NCBI RefSeq assembly: GCF_013284055.1
Contig: NZ_CP054143.1
Span: 1,054,001-1,118,000 of the forward strand
From: Deefgea piscis
GTDB taxonomy: Bacteria > Pseudomonadota > Gammaproteobacteria > Burkholderiales > Chitinibacteraceae
Direction: 5' to 3'
Length of the DNA stretch: 64,000 nt
The notes beneath the pieces were generated by a model, which worked only from the letters and a program-made list of their open reading frames with translations, had not been told where the DNA came from and did no database searches. Below are positions 33,555 through 39,864 of the stretch, in pieces (positions within the stretch are counted from its first letter, which is position 1; every line of letters starts with the position of its first letter). A program made the translations under genes and the position numbers.

Positions 33555-35309
33555 TTAAAAGTCCATCGTCACTTTCGCCAAATTGCGGGGGGTATCGATG
33601 GCATTACCACTCAGCACAGCGCAGTAATACGCCAGCATTTGTAGCGCAACGATATAAATGATGGGGCTTAAGTGCGTTAAACCACTCGGCATCCGAATCA
33701 CGCTGGTGCCTTCAACTGACGCAATATTGCCGTTGGACAAAATAAAAATCTCGCCATGGTTGGCGCGGATGGCTTTTAAATCATCGAGCATTTTTTGCGC
33801 TTGCTGATTCCACGGCAAACAAACAATCACCGGCAAATCATCATTCACCAAAGTAATCGGTCCGTGCTTTAACTCGCCAGCGGGGAAGGCTTCAGCATGC
33901 TGATAAGCCACTTCTCGAAGCTTAAACGCGCCTTCCATCGCCACGGGGTAATGCGTGTGACGACCGATCACAAATAAATTATTTTTCCGATGCAAACCAT
34001 TGGCCCAGCGGCGAATTTCTTTATTGAGCAACAAAGTTTGCGCCACCACATTCGGCAAGAGCAACATCTCTTCATCATGGCTTGCCACTTGCTCGGCACT
34101 TAAATGCCCCCGCGCCTGCCCCAGTGCATTGGCCAGCATAAACAGCAGCAATATTTGGGCGGTGAGTGATTTGGTCGCGCTCACCGATTGCTCGGCACCG
34201 CTGTGTGTGAGCAAATGATGGTCAACCAAGGTGGTCAGCGTGCTACCGGGAGAATTGGTCAAGGCCACCGTGCGGGGGCGACCTGAGGCTTGCGCGTGTT
34301 TTAACGCCGCAATGGTATCGGTGGTTTCGCCCGATTGTGAAATCGCAATCATTAAATCATGATCATCAGCGCGCACATCGCGATCACAATATTCGCTACT
34401 TAAACCCACTTGCACTGAAACACCGGCTAATGTTTCAAACCAATACCGCGCCACCAAGGCGGCGTGATAGCTCGAACCACAAGCTAATAATGTCACGCTG
34501 CGAATACCAGCTAATTTGGCCCGCAGCGCCAAGGGCAAAACGTAACCCTCCTTGTATTTTTGCACTAAGATCGCCAGCGTTTCTGGCTGCGCTTCGATTT
34601 CTTCCAGCATAAAGTGCGGCACACTTTGGTTCTTGGTCACCGCCGGCATCTCTAGCACTTGCTCCAGACCATCCCCTAAAATTAACAACGGGGTATCAAG
34701 CCCAAAGCGAACAATATCGCCGTCTTTCATTGCATACACCTGATTTGCACGTTGGCGTATCAGCCGTAAGCTACTGCTACAGATTTGCCGTAAACCTGAT
34801 TCTAGCCCAACAAACAAAGGCAAGCCTAAACAGCTGGCTAAAATAAACTGCGCCTGGCTTTCTTGGTGGCACAGATAACTGATCTGACCTTTTAATTGGG
34901 CATTGGCAATCAGCATTGCCTCGGTCAAGTTCGCGCCGTCATCGATTTGCCGCTGCAAAACCGCCGCGATCAACTCATTTAAACTACATGCGTCGCCCAA
35001 ATTAAGGCTGTGCGCTAAATCTTGATGATTCAAACAATGCCCCATCGCCCGAATCTGTAAACCGGCCCGATTGGTTGGCGTTAATGGCTGCGGCTCATGG
35101 TGCAAACTGGCAATCAGCCAATGGCACGTTTCACTACCGAGCGATAAGCGCTGCACTGGTTGCGGCAAGACCCAACGTTTTTGTGTGCTGCTCGCCTGCT
35201 CTTCTAGCACCAAATTCAAATGCGTATTGCTGCTATTTAAAATCAAAATGCAATCGGACAATGCAGGTAACACATTTTGTGGCGCAATATAGGCAATCAA
35301 TTCAGACAT
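33555..35309 (-). CDS. GlmS-like SIS enzyme with degenerate glutaminase domain
   Basis: This protein of 584 residues aligns along its length with glucosamine-6-phosphate synthase, but the nucleophile Cys of the glutaminase domain is replaced. Canonical MCGIVGAIA...NVAPVL reads MSELIAYIAPQNVLPAL. The N-terminal domain (1-230) is strongly diverged, so it should not use glutamine. The two SIS domains (about 265-400 and 435-570) are intact, with GSSYHAAL, SQSGETTDT, and the isomerase catalytic residues Glu and His in REVAYQHAEAFPAGELKHGP and the Lys in the C-terminal RNLAK. Ammonia-dependent synthesis or the reverse, deamination of glucosamine 6-phosphate, are likely. A good AAGGTGAAAT site precedes the ATG. 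Confidence 0.82.
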   Translation of the reverse strand: MSELIAYIAPQNVLPALSDCILILNSSNTHLNLVLEEQASSTQKRWVLPQPVQRLSLGSETCHWLIASLHHEPQPLTPTNRAGLQIRAMGHCLNHQDLAHSLNLGDACSLNELIAAVLQRQIDDGANLTEAMLIANAQLKGQISYLCHQESQAQFILASCLGLPLFVGLESGLRQICSSSLRLIRQRANQVYAMKDGDIVRFGLDTPLLILGDGLEQVLEMPAVTKNQSVPHFMLEEIEAQPETLAILVQKYKEGYVLPLALRAKLAGIRSVTLLACGSSYHAALVARYWFETLAGVSVQVGLSSEYCDRDVRADDHDLMIAISQSGETTDTIAALKHAQASGRPRTVALTNSPGSTLTTLVDHHLLTHSGAEQSVSATKSLTAQILLLFMLANALGQARGHLSAEQVASHDEEMLLLPNVVAQTLLLNKEIRRWANGLHRKNNLFVIGRHTHYPVAMEGAFKLREVAYQHAEAFPAGELKHGPITLVNDDLPVIVCLPWNQQAQKMLDDLKAIRANHGEIFILSNGNIASVEGTSVIRMPSGLTHLSPIIYIVALQMLAYYCAVLSGNAIDTPRNLAKVTMDF

Positions 35310-35376: not shown

Positions 35377-37005
35377 TTAAGCCATTTTAAAGCGTTGCAC
35401 CGTTGCGGTAAGTTGATCGGCCATGGATTCAAGTTGCCCAATCGACTCGCCCATATTGCGTACCGCCACCGAGTTCTCTTCAGCCATCGCCGCAATGCGC
35501 TCAACGTTAACGGCAATATCACGCGCCGCCGAGCGTTGTTCTTGCATTTGTTCGCTGATTTCGTGCACCGAATGCACTACTTCACCACTGCGCTGATTAA
35601 TACGGCCAATACTCTCGCTGGCTTGGGTGGTTAATTGCAAACCATCACCAACACGCTGGCTGCCGCTACTCATGCGAGTGACCGCATCTTGTGCACTGCT
35701 TTGAATATTGCTCACCATCTTGGTGATTTGGCTGGCCGATTGCGCAGTACGCTCTGCAAGCTTACGCACTTCATCGGCCACCACGGCAAAGCCACGTCCC
35801 ATATCACCGGCACGGGCCGCTTCAATCGCGGCATTCAGGGCTAATAAATTGGTTTGATCGGCAACATCTTTAATCACCACCACAATGCTGCCGATTTCAT
35901 TGATATTCCGACCCAATTCAGTAATTTGCTCGGATGCGCCCAGTACTTCGCCAGAAATTGCCTGCATTTCCATCGCCGCCGCCGACACATCTTTGCTACC
36001 TTCGTTGGCTAATTCACCGGCCCCGCGCGCTTTTTGCTCAACATCATTGGTGTTGTCAGCCACTTGATCCATGCTGGTGCTCATCTCTTCAACCGCCGCT
36101 GCCATTGAGCTGGCTGACGACGATTGCAAATCAGAGCCTGAAGTAATTTGCTGTGACGCCGCCGATAAGGTCCGCGCGGCGTGTGTGACGTCTATTGCAT
36201 TGGTTTGAATCTGGCGAATAATTTGCACTAGATTTTCTTGCATCGTTTGCAAAGCGCGTTGTAATTGGCCCAATTCATCATTCGCAAAGTGCGTTCCGCG
36301 CCAATCATGACTTAAATCGCCGCTGGCAATTTTGCTGGCAACACGGCTAGCAGATTCCAAAGCGGTAATCACTTTCGAGCCAATCACCCAAGCCAGCACT
36401 AAACCGAGCAAAATCGCCAATACGCTCACCAATAAAATGCTATTGACTGCGGTGCTGACGCTATTTTGTACCGTGGTTTTATCTTCATCCATTAAGCGGC
36501 TTTCATAGGCGGCCAATTTAAGCAAAGCATCCCGATATGCATTGCTGACTTTGGCATATTCTGTGGTAATAAAATGCCCACCCGTGGTGCGATCGAGTCT
36601 TAATAAAGTCGCCAATTTGATTTTTTGCAAATCCATTGCGGCATTGCTTGCCACGACTTCAGCGAGTAAGGCCTGGGCCTGAGTATCACCACCAATCAGG
36701 GCTTTAAGTTCGCTGATTTTATTTTCTTCAGTACTGCCTTCTGACTCTAATTGCGTCAAAATTTTATCGGTATCACTCGTGGTTTCGGCTAAAGCAGCAT
36801 TACGTAGCGTTAAATCGGTTTGATAAGCAATGGATATCAATTGATTGGACTTCACCACCGTAGGATAACGCTCATCCACTAGCTCGCTGACCTTGCCTCG
36901 AAGCTGAGTCAGACTCAATAAAGCCACAATCGCTACAATCGCTAGCAACAATAAAACTACCCCAAACCCAGCCAGAAGCCGTGTTTTTACGCCCCAATTA
37001 TGCAT
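35377..37005 (-). CDS. methyl-accepting chemotaxis protein
   Basis: This chemoreceptor of 542 residues has TM1 near residues 10-33, a four-helix-bundle periplasmic ligand domain (about 35-190), TM2 near 192-212, HAMP, and signalling helices with the tip [19 protein letters not shown]. The [22 protein letters not shown] block is typical of adaptation-helix sequence. It ends in VQRFKMA, without a CheR pentapeptide. ATG at 37005 follows AAAGGG; a GTG at 37011 is an alternative. An upstream GCCAATAA resembles the FliA -10, but the -35 is unconvincing. The ligand is unknown. Confidence 0.93.
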
Positions 37006-37118
37006 ACCCACCCTTTACTTTCTAATTATTGGCATTATTTACATCGTCATTTTCCTTATAATATACCGTAAGCTTTGTTCACGCATATTATCAACGACTG
37101 ATTGTCACTAGGTGATGT

Positions 37119-38832: not shown

Positions 38833-39864
38833 ATGAAAGCCTTTATTTTTCCTCTACTTTTTGCCAGCTCACTCACAATGGCCACGAGCGATGCGCCATT
38901 ACAGCGCTATCAATGTGATGAAGGCCAATCGTTTACACTCAGATTGACCTCGCCTGACTCGCTTGAATTGCTCAGTGGCTGGACCTTCCAAAAACTACCC
39001 CATGTTATCTCGGCGTCTGGCGCCAAATACAGTGACGGTAGCACCACGGTGTGGTTAAAAGGCCAAGGCGGCTTTTTAGAAGTCGATGATGTGATTGTGG
39101 CCAATAATTGCACACTCATCTCTGCTGATGAACCGCTCAACCCGATTCGCGACGCGGCGTCTGGCTTGATTTTTATTCCGCCAGAACGTTGGACGGCAAA
39201 CAATGTACAAGTGGACGTGAAATCAGGCAGTGAAATTCCATTTTATGGTGAAACGGCATTACAGCAGTTTGAATATCGTTTTCGCGGCGGCAATGATGCA
39301 GCGCATTATCCTTTGCTAGATATTCTGGTTTTTCCAAAATCAGCATGGAGCCAACTCGAAAAAACCCCACCACCTGGTTTTGTGCTTGGCGATGACGGTC
39401 AGCGGGTTTATTTAGCGCAATTGCCAAGTAATAATCCATTTAATCCAGCCAGCAAAAATGGCAAAGAATTTATCGCTTTGCAAATGACGCCAGCTGAAGT
39501 GAAACAGGCATTTTCCATGTATGGGATTGTGAAAAATAAAGCGATTGAAAGCGTTACCGCGAAAGTGATGTGGCTGGATCGTCGGCTGTATCCCGGCGCC
39601 GTGCTCACCGTTGAATTGCGCGATGTATCCAAAATGGATGTCGCTTCAGAATTGATTGCGAAAAAAGTCATCACTTTAACGCAAGGTACGCCGCCAACGG
39701 TAACGCTGAAATTTGCTCCAGAAGCGATTAATCCTAAGCATCGTTACAACGTCAGTGCGCGTTTAGAGCAAGATGGTAAGTTAATCAAAATTAGCGATAC
39801 CCAAACGCCAGTGCTCACGCAGGGCGCGCCACGTGAAACCAGTATTATGCTCAAAGCCATCTAG
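38833..39864 (+). CDS. exported protein, MliC-like and YbaY-like domains fused
   Basis: This exported protein of 343 residues has a signal peptide (1-17). Its N-terminal domain (about 23-98) resembles the MliC lysozyme-inhibitor fold: YQCDEGQSFTLRL, then SASGAKYSDGSTTVWLKGQGGFLEVDD and the Cys in NNCT, two Cys in all. The C-terminal third (about 230-335; VTAKVMWLDRRLYPGAVLTVELRDVSK, SARLEQDGKL) resembles the YbaY/YscW domain. The middle part is unrecognised. The combination suggests an envelope protein with lysozyme-inhibitory or lipoprotein-chaperone-like action. The domain calls are by eye. Confidence 0.65.
   Translation: MKAFIFPLLFASSLTMATSDAPLQRYQCDEGQSFTLRLTSPDSLELLSGWTFQKLPHVISASGAKYSDGSTTVWLKGQGGFLEVDDVIVANNCTLISADEPLNPIRDAASGLIFIPPERWTANNVQVDVKSGSEIPFYGETALQQFEYRFRGGNDAAHYPLLDILVFPKSAWSQLEKTPPPGFVLGDDGQRVYLAQLPSNNPFNPASKNGKEFIALQMTPAEVKQAFSMYGIVKNKAIESVTAKVMWLDRRLYPGAVLTVELRDVSKMDVASELIAKKVITLTQGTPPTVTLKFAPEAINPKHRYNVSARLEQDGKLIKISDTQTPVLTQGAPRETSIMLKAI

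Follow-up and report, generated by a model that had tools for sequence, protein, structure and literature searches.

A GlmS paralogue of Deefgea with an erased glutaminase site, a predicted Ntn fold, and a conserved isomerase site

For the NagB enzymes, deamination is the favourable direction at ordinary ammonia levels, and in another amidotransferase family a nucleophile-less glutaminase domain of asparagine-synthetase origin has been kept as a structural part of beta-lactam synthetase and carbapenam synthetase. In glucosamine-6-phosphate synthase (GlmS), the hydrophobic ammonia channel is made up of Trp74 and the C-terminal tail (PMC7948480). In human GFAT-1, glutamine is hydrolysed by the equivalents of Cys1, Asn98, Gly99, and Thr606, and the isomerase site has the equivalents of Lys485, Glu488, His504, and Lys603 as its catalytic residues (PMC7000685).

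The gene described herein is carried by a complete genome (3.43 Mb) of the genus Deefgea (NCBI family Chitinibacteraceae) and lies within a stretch of 64,000 nucleotides that was analysed as a whole (hereafter the window). It occupies exactly the positions given in the initial annotation (33555-35309), which did not name the strand, found herein to be the minus strand, and it forms a single ATG-to-stop frame of 584 codons with no internal stops. Orthologues at 94-95% identity are carried by named Deefgea records. As had been proposed, the 584-aa product (P0001) is alignable with GlmS from residue 1 to its end, the homology of the N-terminal domain being shown by profile and predicted fold. It consists of a putative pseudo-glutaminase (Ntn-fold) domain (residues 1-214, 34668-35309, minus strand) and a tandem SIS isomerase domain (approximately residues 227-584, 33558-34629, minus strand).

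The residue following the initiator Met was confirmed to be Ser instead of the nucleophilic Cys. An in-frame stop is located two codons 5' of the ATG, with Asn (N) as the sole upstream residue, and an alternative start thus cannot restore Cys; a wrong start or a frameshift masking this residue was ruled out by the stop together with dozens of intact relatives. Numbered as in E. coli GlmS without its Met, position 1 is Ser instead of Cys, and none of Arg26, Arg73, Thr76, His77, Asn98, and Asp123 is present, Gly99 and Trp74 of the glutaminase domain being retained; the glutamine-site residue Thr606, in the changed tail, is absent as well. Throughout the 42 full-length relatives described below, the glutaminase residues are lost in every member, residue 2, Ser in the window protein, is elsewhere Thr, Pro, Ala, Gly, Asp, Asn, or Lys and never Cys, and all the glutamine-binding or -hydrolysis residues checked are changed except Gly99 and usually Trp74, such that the first description of the domain as mostly diverged was an understatement.

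The window protein and the normal GlmS encoded in its own genome are 15.5% identical in the N domain and 38.8% identical in the isomerase domain. A profile built from the dead N domains matched the N domains of ordinary GlmS proteins in other genomes with E values down to 1e-44, which demonstrates common descent. When the N domain alone was modelled with AlphaFold2 (pLDDT 91.4, pTM 0.89), its best match among solved structures was the glutaminase domain of E. coli GlmS (1xff; Z 24.4, 2.7 Å, 208 residues), and the model displayed the fold of class-II (Ntn) glutamine amidotransferases. The structure prediction suggested in the initial annotation thus indicated that the N-terminal domain keeps the Ntn glutaminase fold, and chance resemblance to a glutaminase was ruled out by the profile E values and the predicted fold. 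The full-length model (pLDDT 86.1) matched full-length GlmS over residues 2-577 with a different domain orientation.

In the isomerase domain, the sugar-phosphate and catalytic residues are all kept. K463, E466, H482, and K579 correspond to K485, E488, H504, and K603 of E. coli GlmS, and both the REVAYQHAEAFPAGELKHGP block with its Glu and His and the PRNLAK block with its Lys are present exactly as first quoted. The equivalents of these four residues, as well as those of Ser303, Ser347-Gly350 (including Q348 and S349), and Thr352, are kept in 42 of 42 full-length relatives, and the sugar-site positions are conserved beyond expectation in the dead family (p = 5e-5). The predicted domain matched that of GlmS with a Z of 49 (1.8 Å, 347 residues), and the solved NagB-II structures 7kqa and 8fdb with Z of 40.7 and 38.1, respectively.

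The C-terminal tail following K579, VTMDF (33558-33572, minus strand), replaces the SVTVE of GlmS, which follows Lys603 invariantly in 27 canonical sequences and is variable in the dead family; among 20,000 draws of five otherwise invariant isomerase positions, none was as variable. Further relaxed isomerase positions include 484, 486, 487, 492, 497, and 499, which we take to belong to the domain interface of GlmS. The tail that lines the ammonia channel is thus no longer under constraint in the family, and ammonia channelling appears to have been lost.

A search of the host genome revealed three GlmS-like proteins, namely the window protein, L002, and L003. L002, the second full-length glmS that had been proposed as a search target, encodes an intact full-length GlmS (MCGIVGAVSNRN...) with every glutaminase residue present, and the window gene as the sole GlmS of the organism was thereby ruled out, as was the lack of a further glmS that the initial annotation had named as part of a refutation. 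The absence of the nucleophile and of a glutamine pocket, the relaxed channel tail, and the separate intact glmS together strongly support the view that the window protein would be glutamine-independent, as one of the two initial proposals had it.

Among 43 genomes of the family Chitinibacteraceae as defined by NCBI, 33 carried the 42 full-length dead relatives, and a normal glmS always accompanied the dead copy in the carriers. The relatives form two clades. Clade A, which contains the window gene, comprises 15 genes (from seven Deefgea genomes, five genomes of genus g2, and, as three genes, two g4 genomes), and clade B comprises 27 full-length genes; four Deefgea genomes additionally have a clade B copy cut down to the SIS part. 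In the maximum-likelihood tree of the isomerase domain, a single branch separated the dead from the canonical forms (support 100/100), and clade A was recovered as one group (100/99). A CLPW[ND] motif is present in 38 of the 42 dead forms vs none of the 27 canonical ones. The dead N-domain profile scored 174-255 bits inside the family and at most 153 bits (ordinary GlmS) outside it across 250 genomes of the order, and in 369 genomes of the class it returned nothing at E <= 1e-44 except the window gene. The dead forms of the family share one origin, and GlmS copies that lost their glutaminase independently may exist elsewhere. We propose that one glmS copy lost its glutaminase activity, once, in the Chitinibacteraceae lineage, and that the dead copy may later have divided into clade B, found near dxs/ispA, and clade A. 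A literature search of incomplete coverage returned no paper on a glutaminase-dead GlmS paralogue or family, which is weak evidence.

The SIS-only protein L003 (G000:C1:2528225-2529229, minus strand, 368 aa) and its relative L075 represent the truncated form seen in the four Deefgea genomes, in which Glu488 is replaced by Ala and SQSGET by AESGEA, and which shows a dN/dS of 0.14 despite a long branch. Both were placed on this branch inside the Deefgea clade B, and their locus is the clade B locus, between a cytochrome c gene and a glycosyltransferase-ispA-dxs block; tree placement and locus thus identify them as clade B genes stripped of the N domain. Separately, a clade B gene broken by in-frame stops was observed in genus g138 (L115, G319:C1:2163357-2163849), and genome G303 gave two apparently identical canonical glmS matches of equal score and identity (G303:C1:1748031-1749413 and, on a second contig, G303:C4:13186-14568).

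For the N domain, dN/dS was 0.026-0.057 in those Deefgea pairs whose synonymous sites were unsaturated and did not exceed 0.135 in the more distant Deefgea clade A pairs; the maximum anywhere, 0.31, was reached by a single pair of clade B genes from g5. The dead glutaminase domain is under strong purifying selection, and such low values indicate a domain in use rather than in decay. That the window gene is a decaying duplicate, a pseudogene in progress, is therefore a reading to which we give next to no credence: clade B copies can erode, as four Deefgea genomes with an SIS-only form and G319 with a broken copy attest, but for the window gene this explanation is already contradicted by the selection result, the frame being open in all orthologues, the dead-domain dN/dS lying at 0.03-0.06 in close pairs, and the isomerase site being invariant.

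A gene for a methyl-accepting chemotaxis protein (4HB-HAMP-MCPsignal; 35377-37011, minus strand) is located 67 bp upstream of the window gene. In Deefgea, this receptor gene precedes the clade A gene on the same strand by 67-158 bp, the order being kept in six of six further loci measured, and the two are possibly co-transcribed. Several other genera have a chemotaxis receptor downstream of the clade B gene (L079:4147-5790, L093:7928-9523, L088, L103, and others); it is conserved over its full length at 46-80% identity and differs from the Deefgea clade A receptor, to which it is about 30% identical in the signalling part only. Otherwise, the neighbours of the family genes change between genera and include chemotaxis, transport, photolyase, or dxs/ispA genes. 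Elsewhere in the window, positions 38833-39864 encode a predicted protein joining lysozyme-inhibitor (MliC) and YscW domains.

The receptor genes adjoining members of both clades, the preservation of a pseudoenzyme domain by selection, and the action of the His504 equivalent across the dimer interface would all suit a regulatory partner, not primarily an enzyme, that forms mixed dimers with GlmS or senses amino-sugar phosphates. We nevertheless regard this as highly improbable, since a pure regulator would not need isomerase catalytic residues that are invariant in 42 sequences, and since the isomerase domain is less than 40% identical to that of the partner GlmS.

At 13 clade B loci (L074:7349-8203, L079:7823-8683, and 11 others), the clade B gene is preceded on the same strand, at a distance of 56-96 bp, by that of a Branch-type (PF02485) glycosyltransferase, with which it possibly forms an operon. 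Being a possible consumer of amino sugars, this transferase lends some colour to a free-ammonia glucosamine-6-phosphate synthase, which would aminate fructose 6-phosphate with ammonia from amino-sugar breakdown and bypass glutamine when ammonia is plentiful, and which the intact isomerase and amino-transfer residues and the loss of glutaminase and channel tail would likewise fit. This explanation appears decidedly improbable, however, in view of the intact glmS in every carrier and of an equilibrium that, from general knowledge of the NagB enzymes, lies on the deamination side at normal ammonia.

With respect to amino-sugar catabolism, NagB-I scored above its cut-off in 40 of the 43 genomes, including every carrier, and phosphoglucose isomerase (PGI) was present in all 43, which ruled out a stand-in for either enzyme where it is lacking. 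The nagB-I setting, leuCD-nagB-leuB, was conserved where examined. Membership of a nag operon was also ruled out, no nag genes adjoining the family genes at the loci inspected. The genera without nagA among the 43 genomes are Deefgea, g2, g4, and g137, the first three being exactly the clade A genera, and one g2 genome has no clade A gene. Deefgea, g2, and g4 are without nagA, yet possess the GlcNAc transporter gene nagE and nagB-I; PIG-L deacetylases, candidate nagA substitutes, occur in nearly all the family genomes and do not discriminate. Upstream of the window gene, no NagQ/DasR-type operator was found with the few motif forms tried, and Rfam gave no RNA element nearby. The missing nag context, the nagA-less clade A genera, and the absence of such an operator among these forms all speak against a simple catabolic role. 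Hence the other initial proposal, of an enzyme working in the deamination direction as in amino-sugar catabolism, stands unproven.

Nevertheless, the reading that we favour, with a probability of roughly one half, is that the window protein is derived from GlmS but independent of glutamine, most likely being a NagB-II-like glucosamine-6-phosphate deaminase/isomerase that retains the glutaminase domain as a structural or regulatory module. The same catalytic set is kept by a NagB-II-like protein encoded beside nagA (L141; 339 bits, the NagB-II model requiring 430), and together with the structural matches to NagB-II this indicates that a GlmS fold devoid of glutaminase can act as a deaminase. 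The hexose 6-phosphate would be bound as in GlmS, a Schiff base of the Lys603 type and a 1,2-proton transfer by the Glu488-type residue would be used, and ammonia would be exchanged with the solvent. In the cell, the most likely reaction would be the conversion of glucosamine 6-phosphate to fructose 6-phosphate and ammonia, or plain isomerization, beside NagB-I. The retained residues are common to synthases and NagB-II-type deaminases and thus do not give the direction, which we infer; the retained catalytic set could equally belong to a deaminase, a free-ammonia synthase, or an isomerase. Against the deaminase reading, the NagB-I of all carriers would make a second deaminase redundant.

The fact that glucosamine 6-phosphate is already served by NagB-I would also speak for a changed substrate, the protein then being an isomerase, deaminase, or deglycase of the SIS type for some other phosphosugar, such as a different amino sugar phosphate or a fructosamine phosphate. 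The isomerase domain shows derived yet conserved features (CLPW[ND] and GNxID[TAS]PR), and these point the same way, as does the deglycase nature of the SIS relatives FrlB and FraB. We consider such a change unlikely, as the sugar-phosphate site is the same as in GlmS at nearly all positions, and as the protein scored 45.1 bits against the cut-off of 430 of the fructoselysine-6-phosphate deglycase family FrlB (NF008481). Within the favoured deaminase/isomerase reading, the pseudo-glutaminase domain would have been kept as a structural cap, or else as a regulatory or ligand-sensing module. A more speculative extension, which we consider rather unlikely, is that the erased domain turned into an allosteric sensor controlling a glutamine-independent isomerase/deaminase, family-wide, in chitin degraders that have a true GlmS and NagB-I.

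Many proteins of the family are automatically annotated as glmS, and on that basis chitin degraders would be assigned two or three glutamine-dependent synthases; all but one of these would presumably be unable to use glutamine. The annotation is also inconsistent, since some clade B members pass the cut-off of the GlmS equivalog TIGR01135 (418 bits) and the window protein, with 389 bits over residues 112-580 only, does not. In Pfam, two SIS domains alone were found in the latter, the N-terminal glutaminase homology being missed. Moreover, the family offers a natural series from the bifunctional GlmS via a form whose glutaminase domain is dead yet intact to the loss of the domain (Deefgea L003, at the clade B locus). 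This series may resemble the evolutionary route to the SIS-only deaminases, and the family renders the reason for keeping a dead glutaminase domain directly testable.

In comparison with the known systems, the window protein resembles GlmS/GFAT in its two-domain architecture, full-length homology, combination of Ntn fold and tandem SIS isomerase, and complete set of isomerase catalytic residues, and its structural model can be superposed on that of E. coli GlmS. Unlike GlmS, it is without the nucleophile Cys and the glutamine-site residues and its C-tail/ammonia channel is relaxed, and the dead family has the private CLPW[ND] motif and is present in addition to a true GlmS. With NagB-II of Shewanella denitrificans (8eol/8fdb) and Stenotrophomonas (7kqa), it appears to share a GlmS-derived SIS fold, the same catalytic set, and the lack of glutaminase activity; in contrast to these SIS-only proteins, which have no N-terminal domain, it keeps a full pseudo-glutaminase domain and, with 111.8 bits, fell short of the 430 required by the NagB-II model (NF046059). 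The SIS isomerase fold is also shared with the archaeal glucosamine-6-phosphate deaminase GlmD (2cb0, Z 38.6), whereas GlmD is single-domain and the two-domain window protein scored 97.8 bits against its cut-off of 580 (NF041128). By the features tested, the window protein accordingly belongs neither to GlmS (nucleophile, site, and tail) nor to NagB-II or GlmD (score and architecture); it would act as the isomerase domain of a GlmS deprived of its supply of glutamine. For the retention of a dead glutaminase domain, the nearest parallel is beta-lactam synthetase, which, like carbapenam synthetase, belongs to the same fold class as the predicted N domain (Z 14.9 and 12.9, respectively) but differs in amidotransferase family and chemistry.
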